Source of the DNA: Gammaproteobacteria bacterium
Lineage (GTDB): Bacteria; Pseudomonadota; Gammaproteobacteria; Burkholderiales; Gallionellaceae
Length of the DNA stretch: 64,000 bases
Reading direction: 5' to 3'
NCBI GenBank assembly: GCA_018814405.1
Contig: JAHIZO010000005.1
Location: forward strand, 360,684 to 424,683
Shown here: positions 21,479 to 51,118 of the stretch, one piece after another
Position numbering within the stretch: position 1 is the stretch's first letter
How the letters are laid out: the number at the start of each line of letters is the position of its first letter
Notes under the pieces: generated by a model
What the model saw: only the letters and a program-made list of their open reading frames with translations
What the model was told of the DNA's origin: nothing
Databases searched by the model: none
Translations under genes and position numbers: made by a program

Positions 21479-24400
21479 TGCTATCGAAGCTGGTGGAATT
21501 CGCGCTGACCCAGCGCATGCTGGCGGCTGCCTTGACGCTGCTGTTGATCGGTGCCGGCGTGTCCGCTTTCCGCGAACTGCCCATCGATGCCTTCCCCGAT
21601 GTATCGACCACTCAGGTCAAGATCATCATGAAAGCCCCCGGCATGACGCCGGAAGAAGTCGAAGCGCGCATCGTCGCACCGATCGAACTGGAGATGCTGG
21701 GTATCCCTGATCAGCGCGTGCTGCGCTCGATCTCCAAATACGCCATAGCCGACATCACCATCGACTTCAATGACAGCACCGACATCTATTGGGCACGTCA
21801 GCAAGTCGCTGAACGATTGAACAATGCGATGCGCGACCTGCCGGCTGATGTGTCGGGCGGTCTGGCCCCCATCACCACCCCGCTGGGTGAGATGTTCATG
21901 TTCACGGTGGAAGGGGAAGGTGTGTCGCTGGAAGAACGTCGCACCTTGCTGGATTGGACCATCCGCCCCGCCCTGCGCACCTTACCCGGTGTGGCTGACG
22001 TCAATTCGCTGGGCGGTCTGGCGCGCAGTTTCGAGGTCGTTCCAGACCATAACGCACTATCAGCCCGCGGCATCTCCTTTGCCGAGTTACAGGCAGTGAT
22101 CGAAGCCAACAATCGCAACGACGGCGCAGGTCGCATCAGCGATGGCGACGAATCACTTCTGGTGCGTGCCGAGGGCAGCATCCGCAGTCTGCAGGATCTG
22201 CGCGACATCGTCATCGTCGTCAGCCATGGCAATCTGATTCGCGTCAGCGACGTGGCACAGGTGCGCATCGGCAGTTTGACCCGTTATGGCACGGTCACCA
22301 AGGATGGCAAAGGTGAAGCCGTCGAGGGGCTGGTGCTTGGCTTGCGCGGTGCAAATGCGCAAAAGGTCGTGAACGGTGTGCGTGCCAAACTAGCCGAGAT
22401 CGCCCCTACTCTGCCAGCAGGCGTGACAACCAAAGTGTTCTATGACCGGGGCAGTCTGGTCGAGCGCGCCGTCGGCACCGTCTCCAAAGCACTGGGTGAA
22501 GCCATCATTCTGGTGGTCATCCTGCTGGTACTCTTCTTGGGCAATCTGCGCGCCGCGCTGGTGGTCGCGCTCACCCTGCCACTGGCGGTGTTGTTCACCT
22601 TCATCCTGATGGGCGAGTTCGGCATGTCGGCCAACCTGATGTCGCTTGGGGGTCTGGCCATCGCGATCGGTATGCTGGTCGATGCGGCGGTGGTGGTGGT
22701 GGAGAACATCATCAATCACCTCGCGCACCGCCGCGAACACATCCCGCATCTGCATGTGATCTACCGTGCAGTTAAAGAAGTTATCACCCCCGTCGCAGCC
22801 GGTGTCGCCATCATCATCATCGTGTTCCTGCCGCTGATGACGCTGCAAGGACTGGAAGGAAAACTGTTCATTCCGGTCGCAGTCACCATCGTGTTCGCAT
22901 TGTTCGGTTCACTGCTGTTGTCGCTGACTTTCGTGCCCATGCTGGCTTCTTTCCTGCTCAAGACTGCCAGTCATGAAGAACCCTGGCTGGTACGCAAGGC
23001 GATGGCTATCTATATGCCACTGCTGCAACGCGCGCTGGACAAGGAACGTATCGTCATCGTCAGCGCGATCACTTTGCTGTTAGTCACCGGCGGCATCTAC
23101 ATGCAACTGGGCAAGACTTTCATGCCGGAGATGGATGAAGGCGACATCATCATGCAGACCTCCAAGCTGCCATCGATCAACATCGAGCAGACGGCCGAGC
23201 TGGATAAACGCATCCAGGCCGCCATTCTGGAACAGGTACCGGAAGTGCAAGGTATCGTCTCGCGCGCCGGCGCAGACGAACTGGGCCTCGATCCGATGGG
23301 GTTGAACGAGACCGACAACTTCCTCGTGCTCAAACCACAGAAAGAATGGCGCAACAGCGACAAGAACGCCATCGTTGACGACATCCGCAAAGTGATGGAT
23401 GACTTCCCGGGCATCGAATATGGCTTCACACAACCCATCGCCATGCGCGTATCGGAGATGCTGACCGGCGCCCGCGGTGATGTCGCCATCAAGCTGTTCG
23501 GTGCCGACTTGAACATTCTGAATGACCGCGCAGAGAAGATTGTCAAAGCACTGGAAGGCATCCAAGGCAGCGAAGATGTGTTCACCGTACAGAACAGCGG
23601 CGTGCAGTATTACCGCGTCATCATTGACCGTCTGGCCGCCGGACGCATGGGACTGAACGTGGACGACATCGGCGTAGCCTTGCGCAGCCAGATCGAAGGC
23701 CAGCAACTGGGCACTGTCATCGAAGACGGTCGCCGCACGCCGCTGATCATGCGCGGAAAAGAAGATATCCGGCTCTCTCCCGCGCTGTTCTCAGCCCTCA
23801 AACTGCCCCTGCCTAATGGCGAGGCTGTCCCGCTTTCTGTCGTGGCTAAACTGGAACGTGCAGACGGCCCGGTCAAGGTAGATCGTCAGGATGGCCAGCG
23901 CATGGTTGTTATTCAAAGCAATGTGCGCGGGCGCGATCTGGTCGGATTCGTTGAGGAAGCAAAAGCCGCAGTCGCCTCGCAGGTCGACATGCCAACCGGT
24001 TATCGACTGACTTGGGGCGGACAGTTCGAGAACCAACAGCGTGCAGCAGCACGACTCGCCGTGGTCATCCCAGTCGCGCTTGGCATGATCTTCATGCTGC
24101 TGTTCGCCACCTTCGGCTCGGTGCGCCAAGCGGCGCTGGTGTTGACCAACATCCCGTTCGCGTTGATCGGTGGTGTGTTCGCGCTATGGATAAGCGGTGA
24201 ATATCTGTCGGTCCCCGCCTCGGTCGGATTCATCGCGCTGCTGGGTATCGCGGTACTGAATGGCGTAGTGATGGTGTCTTACTTCAATCAGTTGCACGAT
24301 GAAGGACTGTCGCTGGCCGATGTGGTGTTCGAGGGCGCAAAACGCCGCCTGCGTCCGGTGCTGATGACAGCCAGCATCACGGCCTTTGGCCTGCTGCCGG

Positions 24401-36834: not shown

Positions 36835-37476
36835 ATGCAAATAGAAGTCTGGTCGGACGTGATCTGCCCCTGGTGCTATATCGGCAAACGCAAGTTGGAG
36901 ATGGCGCTGGCAAGATTCCCGCATTGGGAAAGTGTACAAGTGATCTGGCGCAGTTTCGAGCTGGATGCCGATGCACCGCGCAACCCGACCGGCACACTGA
37001 ACGAGATGCTCGCCCAGAAATATGATGTCACCCTCCAAGAAGCCGAAGCAATGAACATCCGAGTGACTCAGGCCGCCAAAGAAGTCGGCCTTATCTACCA
37101 TCTGGAAAGCGCACGCCCCGGCAACACCTTCGACGCCCATCGCCTGCTACACTTTGCCGCCTCACGCCAACTGGATGATGTCGCATCCGAACGTCTGATG
37201 CAGGGCTACTTCTCTGAATCACTGGCAGTCGGTGACATTCATGCACTGGCGCGACTCGCACCAGAATTCGGCATCACTGAACATGAGGCACTTGCAGTGC
37301 TGGAAAGCAACGACTACGCCGATGCGGTACGGGCGGACGAAGCGCGTGCCACGGAGTTCGGCATCACCGGCGTGCCCTGCTTCGTCATCGATGAGAGCAT
37401 CGTCATCGCCGGTGCACAGCCTGTCGAAGTGTTCGCTGAAACGCTGCTGCAGGCATGGCAGGAATCACACAGCTAA
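36835..37476 (+). CDS. DsbA-family oxidoreductase, FrnE-like
   Basis: A 213-residue cytosolic thioredoxin-fold protein: IEVWSDVICPWCYIGKRKLE with a CPWC active site at residues 12-15, and the cis-proline strand FGITGVPCFVIDE near the C-terminus. FrnE-type proteins catalyse thiol-disulfide exchange or isomerisation, some linked to oxidative-stress survival. There is no signal peptide. The ATG at 36835 follows an excellent GAGGAGGACGTC. It stands divergent from the ABC permeases and convergent with dipZ, at the edge of the redox block. Confidence 0.9.
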   Translation: MQIEVWSDVICPWCYIGKRKLEMALARFPHWESVQVIWRSFELDADAPRNPTGTLNEMLAQKYDVTLQEAEAMNIRVTQAAKEVGLIYHLESARPGNTFDAHRLLHFAASRQLDDVASERLMQGYFSESLAVGDIHALARLAPEFGITEHEALAVLESNDYADAVRADEARATEFGITGVPCFVIDESIVIAGAQPVEVFAETLLQAWQESHS

Positions 37477-37482
37477 AACCAC

Positions 37483-39132
37483 TCAAGCACCAAACGTGAA
37501 GGCGTAGATCTCCAGCCCCGGTTGCTGCGCTTCTACTTCCAGCACGCCGCGTTGCATCTCACGCTGATCGATCAACTCGTACAGCGTGTTGCGATCCACC
37601 GTCAGTTTGCCGCTCGGTGCATCCTTTCCTGCCAAGGATGCAACCGGCTTCCCGTTCAAATCGATCTTCACATCGATTGGTTTGCCACTGGCGGAACCGA
37701 GCACTAGAAATACCTTGCGCGCATTGAAATCCAGTTTCAGTTTGGCCCCCGCTGAAGTGGAGACACTGTTTTCCAAACCTATCTTCCAGTCACCAGACAA
37801 GGCCCAATGGTCCTCACCCAGGGTTGCGGGCAAGCTGTATCGCTTGCTCGCATCAGAAGCCACCTCTTCCGGACTTGCGAAATTGCGACCACGCGCATAA
37901 CCCAGATAGGTCTCAGGCGTCTGCGTCTCGGCAAAGGTCGGCAACGCTTCTGAGGTCTGCGCGACCTTCTCGCCCAAACCCAGCAGGTAACGGATGTTGT
38001 TCTCCGTCACGTCATACTGGCCTTCACCGAAATGGGTGTAGACCACCTTGCCCTCGCGGTCTATCAGGTAGTGCGCAGGCCAGTAGCGATTGTCGAAGTT
38101 GCTCCAGGTATCAAGCTTGTTGTCCTGCGCCACCGGATACCGGATACCGTGCTCAGCGATAGCCGCCTGCACATTGGCCGTCTTCTTCTCGAATTCGAAC
38201 TCCGGCGCGTGCACGCCGACGATGACCAGTCCCTGTTCGCGATACTTGCGATCCCAAGCAGTGATATAGGGCAAGGTGCGCACACAGTTGATGCAGGAGT
38301 AGGTCCAGAAATCGACCAACACCACTTTGCCTTTCAGCCCCGCCATCGTCAGCGGTTCCGAGTTGAGCCATTTGTCGATACCCACGAATTCAGGTGCAGC
38401 ATAGGGTTTGTCCAGACCGTGTTCCAGTTTCAGTTCGCCACGCGCGATCTCGACACGCTGCGATGACATGAACAAAGTGTCGATGTTCGCGCCGGAAGCG
38501 ATCCAAGCCACCGAAACCAAGATCAGCACACCGAAACCGCGCCGCACCGTTGCTGCATGCCGCGTCAAAAAGCCCAGTCGCTGAACGAGTTTCCTTCCCG
38601 TCAGCGCGATGATGAGCATGGGCACGCCCGCACCGATGCCGAACGAAAGAATGACCAGATTGCCTGCGAAGTCGCTCTGCTGACGGATCACCTGCACCAG
38701 CACTGTCGCCAAAATAGGCCCCGCGCACGGCGTCCACACCAAACCGATCAGCGCGCCGATGCCGATACCACTCAGCAGGCCCTCGCCTTTGCTTGATGCC
38801 AGATCGTTACCCAGATTCGCCGCGCCCTGCGTCAAAGCGCTAAAACGTTCAGATAGTTTTTCCGACAACAGCACCAGACCGAACAATGCCAGCAATACCA
38901 GCGACACATCGCGAATCACATCCAGATCGAGGCCCAGCAGCGCCACCAATTCGCGCGCTGCAACAGCGAACAAGCTGAACGCCAGAACGAAACCGATGAT
39001 GATGCCGTAAGGCCTGCGCTTGCCACCGTCTACCGAGGCAGCCAGCACCAGCGGCAACACCGGCAGGATGCAGGGCGACACGATGAGCGCCAGCCCTTCG
39101 AGGAAGGCGAGACCGATATCGAGCAGATTCAT
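37483..39132 (-). CDS. dipZ: DipZ-type thiol-disulfide exporter (CcdA domain fused to thioredoxin-like and C-terminal domains)
   Basis: A 549-residue fusion. Residues 1-240 are a CcdA-like membrane domain that carries electrons from cytoplasmic thioredoxin; its cysteines lie in LIVSPCILPVLPLVLA and GLVWTPCAGPILATV. A redoxin domain follows with YSCINCVRTLPY (CxxC) near residue 282. The last 130 residues form the DipZ C-terminal beta domain (KLDFNARKVFLVLG). It should deliver reducing power to the periplasm. It starts one base after the secreted msrB stops, so the obvious client is that MsrB, and probably the secreted MsrA nearby. The client relation is inference from position. Confidence 0.9.
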   Translation of the reverse strand: MNLLDIGLAFLEGLALIVSPCILPVLPLVLAASVDGGKRRPYGIIIGFVLAFSLFAVAARELVALLGLDLDVIRDVSLVLLALFGLVLLSEKLSERFSALTQGAANLGNDLASSKGEGLLSGIGIGALIGLVWTPCAGPILATVLVQVIRQQSDFAGNLVILSFGIGAGVPMLIIALTGRKLVQRLGFLTRHAATVRRGFGVLILVSVAWIASGANIDTLFMSSQRVEIARGELKLEHGLDKPYAAPEFVGIDKWLNSEPLTMAGLKGKVVLVDFWTYSCINCVRTLPYITAWDRKYREQGLVIVGVHAPEFEFEKKTANVQAAIAEHGIRYPVAQDNKLDTWSNFDNRYWPAHYLIDREGKVVYTHFGEGQYDVTENNIRYLLGLGEKVAQTSEALPTFAETQTPETYLGYARGRNFASPEEVASDASKRYSLPATLGEDHWALSGDWKIGLENSVSTSAGAKLKLDFNARKVFLVLGSASGKPIDVKIDLNGKPVASLAGKDAPSGKLTVDRNTLYELIDQREMQRGVLEVEAQQPGLEIYAFTFGA

Positions 39133-39133
39133 A

Positions 39134-39622
39134 TCAAGCCTTTTCCGGTACGAACTTCAGCACCGCACCGTTGTTGCAATAACGCAGGCCAGTCGGCTGC
39201 GGACCGTCTTTGAACACATGGCCGTGATGGCCACCGCAGCGTGAACAGTGATATTCGGTGCGCGGGTAAATCAACTTGTAGTCGGTGCTGGTCTCGACCG
39301 CACCGGGCAACACATCGTAGAAACTGGGCCAGCCGGTACCGCTATCGAATTTGAAACGCGAAGGGAACAATGCCTGATCGCAACCGGCACAATGGAACAT
39401 GCCCTTGCGCTTCTCTTTGTCCAGCGCGCTGGTGAAAGCACGCTCGGTACCTTCCCGGCGCAAGATGTCATATTGCTGCGGTGTCAGTTTCTGCTTCCAT
39501 TCCGCATCGCTCAAGATCAACTTGCTACCGCCTTCAGCCGCGAACACGTTGCGTCCGAAAGCGGGCAGTAACATCAGCCCCGCGCCGCTTGCCGCGAATG
39601 AAATGAATGTGCGTCTATCCAT
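39134..39622 (-). CDS. msrB: Exported peptide-methionine (R)-S-oxide reductase MsrB
   Basis: A 162-residue MsrB with a Tat-type signal (MDRRTFISFAASGAGLMLLP). It keeps both zinc CxxC pairs (FHCAGCDQ and YHCSRCGGHHGHVF), the [10 protein letters not shown] active-site region and the catalytic cysteine in GLRYCNNGAVL. It reduces the R form of methionine sulfoxide in proteins; the signal places it in the periplasm, unlike the cytosolic paralogue at 50726-51118. The ATG at 39622 has GAGGTGATCCC upstream. It lies between the Met-rich protein gene and dipZ, which supplies a substrate and an electron donor in one operon. Confidence 0.93.
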   Translation of the reverse strand: MDRRTFISFAASGAGLMLLPAFGRNVFAAEGGSKLILSDAEWKQKLTPQQYDILRREGTERAFTSALDKEKRKGMFHCAGCDQALFPSRFKFDSGTGWPSFYDVLPGAVETSTDYKLIYPRTEYHCSRCGGHHGHVFKDGPQPTGLRYCNNGAVLKFVPEKA

Positions 39623-39691
39623 GGGATCACCTCTATCTGTTGATTCCTGCATCGCTCCGGTCGCAACCCGCGCCACGACCGGCCACCATCC

Positions 39692-39997
39692 TTACTTCAT
39701 GCGTTGCATCGAGCCGTGTTCCATATTTTCTTCTTTCATCATCGCTTCCTTCTTCATCTTCTGTTCTTGCTCTTTCATCTTCATCGCCTTCTTTTCCTTC
39801 TCAGTCAGCTTTTTCTCCATCTTGTCCTGCTTCATCATCTTGTCTTCCTTGTGCTCCATACGCATGGCACCCTGCTCCATGGCCTTATCCGACTGCTTCA
39901 TTTCCATGGCACCATGCCCCATCTCTTCCATGGCCACTGCGGTAGTGCCGGTGGCAGCCAGACAGAGAGCGAGCAATGCTGTGTGAAGTTTGTTCAT
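39692..39997 (-). CDS. Secreted methionine-rich protein, MrpX-like
   Basis: A 101-residue protein with a cleavable signal peptide (residues 1-22, MNKLHTALLALCLAATGTTA then VA). The mature 79 residues contain 18 methionines, many lysines and glutamates, and no cysteine, tryptophan or tyrosine: GHGAMEMKQSDKAMEQGAM and KKAMKMKEQEQKMKKEAMM are typical. It looks like an extended helical oxidant trap rather than an enzyme. A methionine-rich periplasmic peptide, MrpX, controlled by SigF/NrsF, is described for hypochlorite scavenging in Azospira; the neighbours here match that logic. AAAAAGGAGAAACAA precedes the ATG. It is first in the operon mrpX-msrB-dipZ. Homology to MrpX itself is unproven because composition dominates. 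Confidence 0.85.
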   Translation of the reverse strand: MNKLHTALLALCLAATGTTAVAMEEMGHGAMEMKQSDKAMEQGAMRMEHKEDKMMKQDKMEKKLTEKEKKAMKMKEQEQKMKKEAMMKEENMEHGSMQRMK

Positions 39998-40088
39998 TTG
40001 TTTCTCCTTTTTCGTATGATGGCATCATGCTGACCGATGCCGGTGGCAACCCATGCATGGAATGGCTTTGACGCCCCGTGCACCCATT

Positions 40089-40116
40089 GATTCGGAACCT
40101 GCGTAAAAATAGTTAC
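40089..40116 (-). promoter_or_regulatory. Candidate ECF (SigF-type) promoter for the Met-rich protein-msrB-dipZ operon
   Basis: On the minus strand GTAACT (40116-40111) is followed after exactly 16 bases by CGAATC (40094-40089). The same arrangement, GTAACC-N16-CGAATC, lies before the msrA operon at 41450. From memory it also resembles the GTAACC-N16-CGAA element reported for Caulobacter SigF. The start would be near 40082, 85 bases before the Met-rich protein ATG. The -35 lies just ahead of the divergent sigma factor gene. Confidence 0.75.
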
Positions 40117-40120
40117 AGGC

Positions 40121-40663
40121 ATGACACAAAAATCTTCCGATCTGGAACAACTGATGCATAGGTCGCTGCAAGGCGAGCAGCAGGCTTACGCCGATCTGTT
40201 GCGAGAGAGTGCACGCCTGTTGCGGCCATTCCTGTCAAAGCGTCTGCGCTTCGAGCATGAAGTGGACGACGTGCTGCAAGAGATATTGATCTCGGTACAC
40301 AAGGCCCGCCACACCTACGACGGCCAGCGTCCCTACAAGCCCTGGCTATACGCCATCGCCCATTTCCGATTAAAAGACCACCTGCGCATGCACTACGCCG
40401 ACCACCTGCGTCATGCCGAGGACATCACCGATCTGGAAAATATCTTGCATGACGATGTAACCGAAACCGCCATCAGCTACGAATCCATCAGCGGAGAGAT
40501 CGAAAAACTCCCCGAGAAACAGGCCACCATCCTGCGTCTGATGCACCAACAGGGTTACACCGCAAAAGAGACCGCGGCTCAGATGGGCATGAACGAATCG
40601 GCGGTGAAGGTCGCCGCCCATCGGGCCTACAAAGTATTAAGACAAAAACTGGAAGAGAAATGA
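40121..40663 (+). CDS. sigF: ECF-type RNA polymerase sigma factor, SigF-like
   Basis: A 180-residue two-domain sigma factor. Region 2 contains FEHEVDDVLQEILISVHKARHTYDG and YKPWLYAIAHFRLKDHLR (each part of the -10-binding domain). Region 4 contains LPEKQATILRLMHQQGYTAK and ETAAQMGMNESAVKVAAHRA with the helix-turn-helix. Its partner anti-sigma gene overlaps it by four bases. It probably reads the GTAAC-N16-CGAATC promoters on either side. The ribosome site is weak; a TTGATT-N17-TAGTTA pair at 40087-40115 could even give a leaderless message. The pairing with NrsF makes the SigF subgroup assignment likely. Confidence 0.88.
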   Translation: MTQKSSDLEQLMHRSLQGEQQAYADLLRESARLLRPFLSKRLRFEHEVDDVLQEILISVHKARHTYDGQRPYKPWLYAIAHFRLKDHLRMHYADHLRHAEDITDLENILHDDVTETAISYESISGEIEKLPEKQATILRLMHQQGYTAKETAAQMGMNESAVKVAAHRAYKVLRQKLEEK

Positions 40664-41295
40664 AAGACATAGAACAACTGGTGAACCAACTGAGCAGCGA
40701 GGCGAAGCCGATCCGCCCTGCCCCCTCGCCTTGGATGCTCAGCCTGAAATGGTCCGGCGCGGCGCTGGCCTATCTGCTCGTGGCGCTGGCTGCTTCCGGC
40801 TTGCGTACCGATCTGGCGCTTGCACTGCAACATCCGCTGTATGTCGCGGAGATGCTGCTGCTGCTACTGATCCTGCTCAGCACCACACTCGGCTCAGCAC
40901 TACTCGCCTTCCCCGACCTGCACCAGAAGCGCGCACTGGCCTACACGCCAATTGCCCTGTTCGTCTTGTTCATCCTGCTGCTGATATTCGCGTGGCGCGC
41001 CGACGCACCGCCCGCCCCCTTCCCCGTGCACAGTTTTGAATGCACGCTGGACATCACCCTCATCTCGCTGCTTCCCGCCGCACTAGCATTCTTCGCCCTG
41101 CGCGGCTACGCCAGCACCCATCCAAACTGGGCAGGCAGCTTCGCATTACTCGCCGCATTCAGTGTCGGTGCGATCTGGTTACGTCTCTACGAAGTGAACG
41201 ACTCCATCCTGCATGTGGTGCAGTGGCATTACCTGCCGATGGTGGCGGTGGGATTGCTCGGTTGGTTCGCCGGAAGAAGATTGCTGAACTGGTAA
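40660..41295 (+). CDS. nrsF: NrsF-family (DUF1109) membrane anti-sigma factor
   Basis: A 211-residue membrane protein with a short cytoplasmic N-terminus (MKDIEQLVNQLSSEAKPIRP) and six hydrophobic helices, the DUF1109 pattern. NrsF proteins hold SigF-type sigma factors at the membrane and release them on oxidative signals. Cysteine is scarce: one is seen in the periplasm-facing HSFECTLDITL segment, a region where family members carry conserved cysteines, so sensing by thiol chemistry is possible. GGAAGAGAA precedes the ATG, and the ATGA overlap couples it to the sigma gene. Confidence 0.87.
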   Translation: MKDIEQLVNQLSSEAKPIRPAPSPWMLSLKWSGAALAYLLVALAASGLRTDLALALQHPLYVAEMLLLLLILLSTTLGSALLAFPDLHQKRALAYTPIALFVLFILLLIFAWRADAPPAPFPVHSFECTLDITLISLLPAALAFFALRGYASTHPNWAGSFALLAAFSVGAIWLRLYEVNDSILHVVQWHYLPMVAVGLLGWFAGRRLLNW

Positions 41296-41449
41296 TACGG
41301 CTTCAGCATTGCCCCGCCTACTCCTTCCGACATTCCCGCCCCCCTCCAAATAGCCCAACTATTACCGCGCCAAGCAGCAGCGACCAACACATCTGCGCGC
41401 CCTTTGTCTCGATGTGGTTTGGGTGGCGCCGAAATCTCCAAAATAATTT

Positions 41450-41477
41450 GTAACCATTTTTCTTACTCCGCCGAATC
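41450..41477 (+). promoter_or_regulatory. Candidate ECF (SigF-type) promoter for the small protein-msrA operon
   Basis: GTAACC (41450-41455), exactly 16 bases, then CGAATC (41472-41477). It repeats the element at 40089-40116 with one base changed in the -35 and the same spacing. The start would be near 41484, giving an 86-base leader before the ATG at 41570, nearly the same as the 85 bases of the divergent operon. Confidence 0.78.
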
Positions 41478-41569
41478 CGGTAGTACGGAGGTTTGGCATA
41501 CAAAGCTTCGTGACTCAGCCCCGACTTTGCGTCGGTTTAACGATACATCCCTAATTAAAGGAGCTCGTC

Positions 41570-41761
41570 ATGAACGTTTCATCCGCAAACAGCAGCTACG
41601 CAAGCCAGACATTACCAATTCATCCGCCGCAACAGGAGAATGTTCAACAGCAACCCGCCACCCCTGCTCCAAGTCCTGCTTCAAGTCCCGCCGTCAATGC
41701 GGCACCGACTGTCAATACCAGCGGACAGACGGTGGGGCAGTTGATCAATATCTCGGCCTGA
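41570..41761 (+). CDS. Small low-complexity protein, unknown
   Basis: Sixty-three residues, MNVSSANSSYASQTLP at the start, a Pro/Gln/Ala-rich middle and a C-terminus GQTVGQLINISA. It has no signal peptide or hydrophobic helix. AAAGGAGCTCGTC gives it a strong ribosome site, and it is the first gene after the ECF-type promoter, so it is very likely translated. Its N- and C-terminal motifs resemble those of the proteins at 42447 and 53875. Function unknown. Confidence 0.68.
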   Translation: MNVSSANSSYASQTLPIHPPQQENVQQQPATPAPSPASSPAVNAAPTVNTSGQTVGQLINISA

Positions 41762-41823
41762 ACTGGCATTAACCAGACGATGGCTTCTTGCGTTTATCTT
41801 TGACTGACTATGGGGAGGTGATG

Positions 41824-42432
41824 ATGTTGAACATTCGAAAGATTCTCGGCATCCTTCTCTTTGTAACATGTATGTCGAATACGGCTCAGGCTGCAGCCAA
41901 AGAACAAACTGCAGTGTTTGCAGGCGGTTGCTTCTGGGGGGTGGATGCGGTTTTCAAACATGTAAGAGGCGTAAGTGAAGTGGTTTCCGGCTATGCGGGA
42001 GGCGATGCAACTACGGCGCACTACGATCAGGTCAGCCATGGCAATACCGGACATGCTGAAGCGGTACAGATTCATTTTGATCCAGAACAAGTTTCGTTTC
42101 AGCAATTGATGCAGGTGTTTTTCAGTGTGGCGCATGACCCGACGCAACTGAATCGTCAGGGACCGGATCGGGGCAGCCAATACCGTTCGGCGATATTCCA
42201 TACTGATGCACAGCAGCAGAAAATGGCGAATAGCTATATCCGGCAACTTACAGCGGATCGGGTATTCGAATCACCCATCGTCACGCAGGTGGTGCCGTTG
42301 CAGCGGTTTTATCCAGCTGAAGCGTATCACCAGAATTACTTGGCATTGCATCCGACACAGCCGTACATCGTGGTGCACGATATGCCAAAGCTGCTGCAAT
42401 TGCGCATACAGTTTCCAGCGTTGTATCGATAG
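41824..42432 (+). CDS. msrA: Exported peptide-methionine (S)-S-oxide reductase MsrA
   Basis: A 202-residue MsrA with a signal peptide (MLNIRKILGILLFVTCMSNT then AQA) and the catalytic motif AVFAGGCFWGVDAVFKHV. Further family landmarks are GYAGGDATTAHYDQVSHGNT and HDPTQLNRQGPDRGSQYRSA. It reduces the S form of methionine sulfoxide, here in the periplasm. With the exported MsrB it covers both stereoisomers. The second of two tandem ATGs is preferred because GGAGG lies five bases before it. It follows the small protein by 62 bases, probably on one transcript driven from 41450. Confidence 0.93.
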   Translation: MLNIRKILGILLFVTCMSNTAQAAAKEQTAVFAGGCFWGVDAVFKHVRGVSEVVSGYAGGDATTAHYDQVSHGNTGHAEAVQIHFDPEQVSFQQLMQVFFSVAHDPTQLNRQGPDRGSQYRSAIFHTDAQQQKMANSYIRQLTADRVFESPIVTQVVPLQRFYPAEAYHQNYLALHPTQPYIVVHDMPKLLQLRIQFPALYR

Positions 42433-42446
42433 ATTTCAAGCATGCG

Positions 42447-42797
42447 ATGATAGGCGCAATCGGATCTTCTTCCGCTTATGCAGCACAATCTCCCGCTTCC
42501 ACAGCGGGATTGGAAGCGCAACTTAGCCGTTGCCGCCAGCAATTGTCGGAAGCCGTCAATTGCGCGTCCTACAACACTCGGGAAGGCAAAAATAAAGCGC
42601 AAGCCATATCCAACAGGATCGGGGAGTTGGAGGGGCGTATCGAACAGATACGAAATAACTCCGCACAAACCAAAGATATCAATTCGGCCGAGAATCTTCC
42701 TGCCAACGAGAAGACGCTTGCTTCGTCAACACAGGATGCTGTGACGGGAACCATCGATTCTGGAGTACTGGGAACACGCCTGAATGTGTATGCCTAA
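42447..42797 (+). CDS. Small protein of unknown function
   Basis: A 116-residue protein: MIGAIGSSSAYAAQSPASTA, then a helical part with two cysteines (LSRCRQQLSEAVNCASYNTR) and an amphipathic helix (AQAISNRIGELEGRIEQIRN), ending GVLGTRLNVYA. The start lies 14 bases after msrA; the ribosome site is poor, so coupling to msrA is likely. The ends resemble those of the small proteins at 41570 and 53875. No known family is recognised. Confidence 0.6.
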   Translation: MIGAIGSSSAYAAQSPASTAGLEAQLSRCRQQLSEAVNCASYNTREGKNKAQAISNRIGELEGRIEQIRNNSAQTKDINSAENLPANEKTLASSTQDAVTGTIDSGVLGTRLNVYA

Positions 42798-50118: not shown

Positions 50119-50729
50119 AACTGATTGGCTCCAATACCAGCCCTTACGTGCGTAAAGCACGTCTGGTGCTGCTGGAGAAAGGCATCACGCACGATTACGT
50201 GGTCGATCCACCCAGCGATCCGAACAGCGAGGTGTATCACGTCAATCCGCTGGGACGCATCCCTGCCCTGATCCTGGATGACGGCGAATGCATCTTCGAT
50301 TCCGTAGTGATAGCGGAATATGCCGACACGCTGAACGACAGCCCTATCCTCATTCCCCGCAACGATGCCTTGGCGCGTATGCGGGTGCGGCGCTGGGAAG
50401 CATTGACTGACGGCATCATGGATTCCGCCGTCGTGGTGCGCAACGAAGTGACGCGCCCACCAGCAACGCAACTGGCCGCGACGCTGACACTGCACAACAA
50501 CGCCATCACCCACACCCTGCAACACATCGCCGCGCAGCTTGGCACGCGCGACTGGTGCGAGGGCGATGCGCTCACGCTGGGGGACTTGGCATTGGTCAGC
50601 GCGCTGGCCTATCTCGACCTGCGCCAACCGGAACGCGACTGGCGCGGCGCACATCCCAACTTGGCCGAATGGTTCGGGCGCATGCGCGCACGGCCCGGCA
50701 TCCAACTCTCATTGGCTGACAATAAATGA
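50115..50729 (+). CDS. Glutathione S-transferase family protein
   Basis: A 204-residue GST with the thioredoxin-like N-terminal domain ([40 protein letters not shown]) and an alpha-helical C-terminal domain ([17 protein letters not shown]). The SPYVRK site resembles the serine/cysteine-type bacterial GSTs such as YibF. The start is TTG at 50115, overlapping the phoH stop, with GGGTGAAG upstream. The substrate is unknown. Confidence 0.9.
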
Positions 50730-51118
50730 ACGACATCGATAAATCTGAAGAAGAGTGGCGTGAAGAACTGACGCCCGAGCAATACGAGATCTGCCGCAAG
50801 GGCGGTACCGAAGTCGCCTTTACCGGCGAATACTGGGATTGCCACGACATCGGCATCTACCGTTGCGTATGTTGCGGCGCGCCGCTGTTCGATTCCGAGA
50901 CCAAGTATGAATCGGGCACCGGCTGGCCCAGCTTCTGGCAACCCGTGCGGGAGGAAGCCGTCGAGTACAGCGACGAAGATCCGCTCGGCATGGGGCGCAT
51001 CGAAGTCGGCTGCGCGAACTGCGGCTCTCATCTGGGCCACGTGTTCGAGGACGGCCCCGAACCGACAGGCTTGCGTTACTGCCTCAATTCCTCCTCGCTG
51101 GCATTGGATCGCTCATGA
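50726..51118 (+). CDS. msrB: Cytosolic peptide-methionine (R)-S-oxide reductase MsrB
   Basis: A 130-residue MsrB without a signal peptide. Both zinc CxxC pairs ([11 protein letters not shown] and [18 protein letters not shown]), the [11 protein letters not shown] region and the catalytic cysteine in [13 protein letters not shown] are present. It repairs oxidised methionines inside the cell, while the paralogue at 39134 works outside the membrane. Four-base overlaps connect it to the GST and yciB genes. Confidence 0.95.

Follow-up and report, generated by a model that had tools for sequence, protein, structure and literature searches.

Positions 36,835 to 42,797 of the window (the whole 64,000-nucleotide stretch of contig JAHIZO010000005.1, assembly GCA_018814405.1, that was analysed) encode an extracytoplasmic function (ECF) sigma factor of the SigF type, an NrsF-family anti-sigma factor, a methionine-rich secreted protein, the methionine sulfoxide reductases MsrB and MsrA, and DipZ. 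The source genome, from a member of the Gallionellaceae that is Sideroxydans-like by its nearest named relatives, is 2.38 Mb in size and 98.68% complete. The block appears to be a SigF/NrsF methionine-cycling system of a known kind that runs on thiols, and it stands apart as an apparent variant in its supply of electrons, its wiring and its sensing of stress. The differences in sensor and wiring are the fresher part of the finding, more so than the gene combination. The mechanism put forward in a first-pass annotation of this DNA is likely in outline, with hypochlorite as a candidate inducer, and the whole explanation, in which SigF held by NrsF controls two operons, MsrA and MsrB repair methionine with electrons from DipZ and the methionine-rich protein serves as a sink, is assigned a probability of about 0.72.

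With regard to export, enzyme activity, the electron path, the oxidant sink and the inducer, we infer the following scheme. A variant NrsF would keep the ECF16-type sigma factor membrane-bound, and oxidant stress in the envelope would free the sigma factor to transcribe two operons from TGTAAC-N17-CGAA sites. Exported MsrB and MsrA would reduce the R- and S-sulfoxides, respectively, of oxidised methionines in periplasmic proteins, and the methionine-rich protein would soak up oxidant and then become a substrate of both enzymes. Electrons of cytoplasmic thioredoxin would pass through the CcdA-like membrane part of DipZ to its periplasmic CINC thioredoxin domain, and from there to the Msr enzymes. 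Related regulons have been proven experimentally, namely EcfF-OsrA (PMC3420878) and BcrS-AbcS (PMC8315932). In a lineage with iron, nitrite and sulfur oxidisers, the block would place periplasmic methionine repair that is fed by DipZ thiols, not by molybdenum, behind one ECF promoter.

Organization of the locus

The main features of the block, whose gene content is observed directly, are as follows.

40121-40663, plus strand: ECF sigma factor (SigF-like), with Sigma70_r2 and Sigma70_r4_2 matches
40660-41295, plus strand: NrsF-family anti-sigma factor (PF06532, 137 bits, cut-off 26.8)
40090-40117, minus strand: ECF16-type promoter site of the Met-rich/msrB/dipZ operon, TGTAAC-N17-CGAA
39692-39997, minus strand: methionine-rich secreted protein of 101 amino acids (open reading frame, ORF; MrpX/BcrX-like by composition), with orthologues in loci L082, L083 and L160
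39134-39622, minus strand: Tat-type MsrB (PF01641 SelR, 152 bits; TIGR00357 above cut-off; twin-arginine start DRRTFIS)
37483-39132, minus strand: DipZ, with a DsbD/CcdA-like transmembrane (TM) domain, a thioredoxin domain (CINC) and a C-terminal Thioredoxin_10 domain
41449-41476, plus strand: ECF16-type promoter site of the msrA operon, TGTAAC-N17-CGAA
41570-41761, plus strand: Pro/Gln/Ala-rich ORF of 63 amino acids from the ORF list, first of the msrA operon
41824-42432, plus strand: putatively exported MsrA (PF01625, 205 bits; profile scan over 41830-42432; signal peptide by eye)

The first-pass annotation had described a sigma factor and a DUF1109 membrane protein with a four-base gene overlap, a divergent operon of a methionine-rich protein, a Tat-signal MsrB and DipZ, and a signal-peptide MsrA in a second operon, and all three descriptions were confirmed by the ORFs and family profiles. 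The operon that begins with the methionine-rich gene diverges from sigF, and dipZ starts one base past the msrB stop. Signal peptides were assigned by eye and with a crude script, and the export of these proteins is predicted on that basis. SigF shares 58-92% identity with the SigF proteins of the named related loci, and the nearest named relatives of NrsF come from Sideroxydans sp. bins (78 and 81%) and a "Gammaproteobacteria" bin (85%). The 63-residue ORF has no relative by blastp in the related loci. A general sigma-70 promoter and terminator scan returned 2 promoter-like and 5 terminator-like matches, where shuffled sequence averaged 4.0 and 5.1, and was not used.

Two samples of related loci were compared. 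The named set consists of 80 loci (L082-L161), mostly from Gallionellaceae or Nitrosomonadales, that were recovered with a profile of the NrsF clade of the window. The order set (L034-L079) shares contigs with the named set, so that their counts are not additive; with the window, its 46 loci provide 47 NrsF proteins, of which 21 fall in the window clade and 26 in a sister clade. Promoter sites around sigF were judged in 77 loci, which are the window and the 80 named loci minus L104 and L157 (short flank) and L109 and L161 (no complete sigF). Gene content was counted in the 62 loci, window included, that have 5 kb of flank.

Promoter sites and the probable regulon

The Brucella ECF16 promoter consensus is (T/C)GTAAC-N17-CGAA (PMC8315932) and the Caulobacter SigF promoters are of the form GTAACC-N16-CGAA (PMC3511200). 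The ECF16 consensus is matched upstream of both target operons, at sites that were first noticed in a visual search guided by the Brucella motif. A 12-base form, TGTAAC-N15-17-CCGAAT, has two matches genome-wide, both of them the window sites (reversed control 1); it was read off these two sites and its count is thus not independent. The looser GTAAC-N15-18-CGAA gives five matches in the window compared to a shuffle mean of 1.1. A GTAAC-N18-CGAA match inside sigF (40457-40483), which recurs in 19 of the 21 order-set loci of the window clade, was set aside as a promoter and probably reflects conserved codons.

A stricter motif, GTAACYWTTTN12CGAA, was built on 63 divergent sites, the window's own and 62 from relatives. 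It occurs exactly twice in the source genome, at the two operon sites (reversed control 0), and 37 times over 20 genomes (the source genome and 19 relatives), with a reversed control of 0 in all 20; the count is partly circular, as some of the training sites lie in the counted genomes. Neither the site of the msrA operon nor any site remote from sigF entered the training set. On the strand opposite sigF a site is present in 63 of the 77 judged loci, and the spacer is N17 in all 63 with 16-18 permitted; additionally, 11 of the 77 have a site just behind nrsF. Inspection covered 31 of the 37 strict-motif sites, and 24 of these precede genes of the expected kinds when the window msrA operon is counted: the first gene encodes MsrB at nine sites, a methionine-rich protein at seven, MsrA at four, DipZ at three and, at one, the window ORF of 63 residues that precedes msrA. 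Based on these sites, the two operons are very probably co-regulated as one regulon, as the first-pass annotation had proposed.

Several loci stand out among those with a SigF-type site. DUF2282-like or EGKCG-type bufferin-like precursors lie behind the site in L163, L182 and L188 and hint at a copper link, and spondin-like secreted proteins do so in L169, L171 and L173. In L179, from position 1500 on, the msrA gene behind the site appears in two reading frames, owing either to a disrupted gene or to an error in the sequence. The assignments as DUF2282-like, EGKCG-type and spondin-like are our own, made by eye, and the Caulobacter targets, CC2748 and the operons of CC2907 and CC3254, are presumably of the bufferin type.

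The methionine-rich secreted protein

In the methionine-rich protein a 22-residue signal peptide, assigned by eye, is followed by a mature part of 79 residues, 18 of which are Met. For at least 18 Met in 79 residues the binomial probability is 9e-13 at an assumed Met background of 2.5%. Only 2 of the 456 window ORFs of at least 50 amino acids pass a strict test for secreted methionine-rich proteins, and the second one (23097-23585, minus strand) is marginal with 8 Met in 76 residues. No Pfam or NCBIfam profile matches the protein. Compared to the three near orthologues, the differences at codon positions 1/2/3 are 13/8/23 over 100 codons (L083), 19/6/27 over 101 codons (L160) and 15/9/29 over 101 codons (L082); changes are fewest at position 2, so the coding frame is real. 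By its composition and promoter site, the protein corresponds to the secreted methionine-rich member under SigF/NrsF in the MrpX-YedY system. A methionine-rich protein is the first gene in 17 of the 62 flanked loci.

Repair enzymes and the proposed electron supply

A PF00174 (MsrP/YedY) profile search of the source genome, at its completeness of 98.68%, gave no match, and the control was positive in 9 of 14 genomes. Repair of methionine would therefore need thiol enzymes, in agreement with the claim of the first-pass annotation that the route differs from that of YedY. MsrB of the window has the zinc CxxC pairs, the catalytic Cys in RYC, and Thr at what we take to be the usual place of the resolving Cys. 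Among 49 aligned MsrB proteins the catalytic Cys is present in all and the zinc CxxC pairs in 44, and Cys is not conserved at the position of SGTGWPSF. The mature part of MsrA features a single Cys column, the catalytic one (GGCFWG), in 42 of 42 aligned proteins. Msr enzymes that have no resolving Cys require an outside dithiol; this would apply to the MsrA and MsrB proteins here, which have no conserved resolving Cys, and DipZ would be the obvious source.

The DipZ protein contains DsbD_TM, Redoxin and Thioredoxin_10 domains, and its residues 244-548 match the structures 2hyx and 5cyy, of which 2hyx is a DipZ domain (E 1.3e-59). The three domains together with the match to a solved DipZ domain identify the protein as DipZ. 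Four Cys are conserved in 34 of 34 aligned DipZ proteins.

The genome also encodes a second MsrB and a second MsrA. The second MsrB (50726-51118, plus strand, 130 amino acids) has no signal peptide by eye and is probably cytoplasmic. The second MsrA lies outside the window (L194, about 1408-1992; G000:C9:263711), carries a Cys close to its end and could start at either of two positions, with a signal peptide added in one case.

Weighing of the explanation

The neighbourhood is often conserved in the relatives, as was expected from the first-pass annotation: among the 62 flanked loci, MsrB is found in 39, DipZ in 34, MsrA in 33 and an MsrP-like protein in 4, and at least one of these is found in 45. 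The MsrP-like label comes from blastp with a 257-residue protein that shares roughly 30% identity with MsrP of E. coli. Several results weigh against the explanation. No MsrA, MsrB, DipZ or MsrP-like gene is nearby in 17 of the 62 flanked loci, and the divergent site is missing in 14 of the 77 judged loci. Seven of the 31 inspected sites precede other genes (three bufferin-like, two of them DUF2282-like and one EGKCG-type; three spondin-like; one with no clear gene). The strict methionine-rich ORF is present in only 29 of the 80 named loci. An extra zinc-loop Cys occurs in 31 of the 49 aligned MsrB proteins and not in that of the window. Finally, the genome has two MsrA and two MsrB proteins, so that the block is not its only means of repair.

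The bufferin-like, spondin-like and no-gene sites suggest that the stress may be metal. The regulon could be mainly a response to copper or another metal, in which the methionine-rich protein binds Cu(I), as would the bufferin-like peptides of the relatives, and the Msr enzymes and DipZ mend collateral oxidation of methionine and thiols. The three bufferin-like precursors were named by eye against PMC12452194, and further bufferin-like first genes occur among the named loci. Caulobacter SigF-NrsF responds to Cr and Cd (PMC3511200), and one predicted face of the clade NrsF carries invariant residues of these three kinds: His, Glu and Cys. However, neither window site has a bufferin-like gene behind it, 24 of the 31 inspected sites precede Msr, DipZ or methionine-rich genes, and related systems respond to hypochlorite or H2O2 in the published accounts. 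A mainly metal-responsive regulon is unlikely on this evidence, although it is the likeliest of the three alternatives.

It is rather improbable that the methionine-rich protein is a structural or charge-rich (Met/Lys/Glu-rich) protein and no sink, with the block serving periplasmic methionine sulfoxide repair only. The 29 of 80 loci with the strict ORF, set against the commoner MsrB, DipZ and MsrA, make repair look more central than the sink, and they qualify the first-pass claim of a sink as part of the block: the gene is there in the window, and as a general component it is not borne out. However, Met is retained amid sequence drift, with 18 of 27, 17 of 21 and 17 of 24 Met columns shared with the three near orthologues, and MrpX and BcrX are published precedents for the sink role.

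DipZ and CcdA proteins elsewhere serve cytochrome c maturation or disulfide reduction. DipZ could have such a role here, with its adjacency to msrB a matter of operon convenience. This is very unlikely in view of its link to the regulon: a same-strand SigF site lies 1.2-2.2 kb upstream of DipZ in 14 of the 15 clade genomes that have DipZ, and the fifteenth DipZ is apparently split by a contig end. The need of Msr enzymes without a resolving Cys for an outside dithiol also argues against it. The main explanation is further supported by the distribution of the DipZ C-terminal domain, which is found in 34 of 300 order-sample genomes (33 above cut-off), namely in 15 of 20 NrsF-clade genomes vs 19 of 280 others (Fisher p 2.7e-12, kinship ignored). 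Sulfite as the signal, suggested by Sinorhizobium RpoE1/RpoE4 (PMC3511301), was rejected since those are ECF26 sigma factors with another anti-sigma factor.

The putative NrsF sensor and the wiring of sigF

The window NrsF scores 42.9 bits with the NCBIfam AntiSigF_NrsF equivalog, below the curated cut-off of 300. The first conserved NrsF Cys is present in 47 of 47 order-set proteins, whereas the second is present in 26 of 26 sister-clade proteins and 0 of 21 window-clade proteins, which thus do not have the pair C129/C179 or C131/C181. The position of the second Cys is occupied by Glu in all 21 window-clade proteins of the order set and in 69 of 69 aligned clade sequences (alignment A2, which comprises the window and 68 named loci out of 80, after removal of 12 that were incomplete, truncated or nearly identical). 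C128, E178, H185, W189 and H190 are invariant in these 69, and H124 is found in 68. The sister-clade residues at 124/128/178/185/189/190 are mainly T/S, C, C, F, W and Y. Six class-level loci were translated (L196, L199-L203) with a crude fixed offset, and the three that gave usable sequence (L199, L200 and L202) have C, H and C in the second-Cys column.

The AlphaFold2 model of NrsF has a mean pLDDT of 91.3 and six long helices, corresponding to six predicted TM segments. By the helix boundaries of the model only, H124, C128, E178, H185 and H190 are near one face, which we take to be periplasmic according to published topologies. H154 is predicted to face the cytoplasm and was excluded from the candidate site. 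A PDB sequence search with NrsF gave 0 matches at E 0.1 and a Foldseek search with the model gave 0 matches at E 0.001, so the fold provides no clue to a ligand.

The wiring of the sigma operon differs as well. A promoter site on the sigF strand before sigF was found in 0 of the 77 judged loci when exact cores were searched, a test that a weaker site would escape. In the order set such a site is present in 20 of 25 sister-clade loci (L068, which is short, was omitted) vs 0 of 21 in the window clade, with 1 and 0 for the reversed motif. The same-type promoter by which ECF16 sigma operons activate themselves is therefore not seen in the window clade by exact cores. As judged from aligned residues and core motifs, the window clade lacks both the second NrsF Cys and the usual self-activation site. 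No description of this double loss was found in the literature searched, with papers on ECF classification and the NrsF of Azospira outside that comparison.

Natural NrsF proteins without a cysteine that is thought to sense oxidants offer two natural sensor types for comparison on the question of how NrsF senses stress. In Bradyrhizobium OsrA the second Cys is required for the H2O2 response (PMC3420878). In Caulobacter NrsF, induction persisted after a single change of either conserved Cys (PMC3511200). A speculative and rather unlikely proposal is that the Gallionellaceae-centred clade has a new sensing chemistry, in which a site of H124, C128, E178, H185 and H190 at the predicted periplasmic face could bind Cu, Fe, Zn or haem and replace the two-Cys switch. 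With the lost positive feedback, this may give a graded, non-amplifying methionine-repair response fit for microaerophiles with Fe(II)/Fenton chemistry. The Caulobacter result argues against a new sensor, because some NrsF proteins may sense without relying on the second Cys, as does residue 190, which is His in 20 of the 21 order-set clade proteins.

Relation to known systems

The first-pass annotation was not aware of a description of this exact combination; this was overstated, as Bradyrhizobium EcfF-OsrA (PMC3420878) and the perchlorate islands (PMC4623255) come close. EcfF-OsrA, like the window, places Msr genes under an ECF16 sigma factor and a DUF1109/NrsF anti-sigma factor. It controls three methionine sulfoxide reductases, one of them predicted to be periplasmic, the DsbD-core protein Bll1027 and the thioredoxin Bll1026, and its authors proposed that Bll1027 and Bll1026 feed electrons to Msr (PMC3420878). 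Unlike in the window, these genes are spread over several loci, the DsbD core and the thioredoxin are separate with no DipZ fusion, OsrA has C129 and C179 where the window NrsF has only C128, and the available account does not name a methionine-rich member (PMC3420878).

The Azospira SigF/NrsF-MrpX-YedY1 system shares sigF/nrsF, a methionine-rich peptide and a periplasmic methionine sulfoxide reductase with the window (PMC4623255, PMC5748585). It uses YedY/YedZ, however, for which the source genome lacks the PF00174 match. The perchlorate islands of two strains combine sigF/nrsF/yedYZ/mrpX with homologues of msrA and msrB, for whose products export is predicted, and neither DipZ nor DsbD is mentioned in the paper on these islands (PMC4623255). 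A literature search on DipZ and Msr together gave no mention of DipZ among the matches listed.

Brucella BcrS/AbcS-BcrXQP has a divergent, HOCl-inducible operon with a methionine-rich peptide and the same promoter type as the window; unlike the window, it has an MsrPQ reductase, an autoregulated sigma operon and an anti-sigma factor with C129 and C179 (PMC8315932). Caulobacter SigF-NrsF shares the NrsF family and the GTAACC-N16-CGAA promoters, but targets CC2748 and the CC2907 and CC3254 operons, has C131 and C181 and has a similar promoter before sigF (PMC3511200). Haemophilus RpoE2-MsrAB (PMC7907618) and Neisseria MsrAB (PMC3420878) resemble the window in having an ECF sigma factor over periplasmic Msr and differ in that MsrAB is fused and the anti-sigma factor is from another family.

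Distribution of the clade and neighbouring genes

A class-level search of 369 genomes with the clade profile found matches in eight, three of which exceed 300 bits: the window genome, G015 of its own order and G467 of another order. With one of these three outside the order, the clade looks rare there. Clade counts omit L080 and five further NrsF matches under the cut-off. Two Rhodocyclales bins (L111 and L128) belong to the window clade. The same NrsF clade is carried by L154 and L155 (Alphaproteobacteria bins, both with DipZ, MsrA and MsrB) and by L156 (a Rickettsiales bin), which suggests transfer or binning error. A plasmid search with NrsF gave no match at 1e-5.

Two further genes border the block.

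36835-37476, plus strand: FrnE/DsbA-like thioredoxin-fold gene at the left edge of the range, convergent with dipZ
42447-42797, plus strand: FlxA-like protein of 116 amino acids (weak PF14282 match, 24.3 bits, under the cut-off of 26.3)

The FrnE-like gene was ruled out as a regulon member, since it runs towards dipZ and no family-type site precedes it. A FrnE/DsbA-like gene is also near the end of the dipZ operon in L082, L083 and L160, with msrA between in L083 and L160. The FlxA-like gene starts 14 bases past msrA. Relatives of it occur in 8 of the 80 named loci (L084, L087, L088, L089, L101, L103, L108 and L131), in three of the eight beside MsrA, and the protein is a recurring neighbour of MsrA or methionine-rich genes in the regulon.

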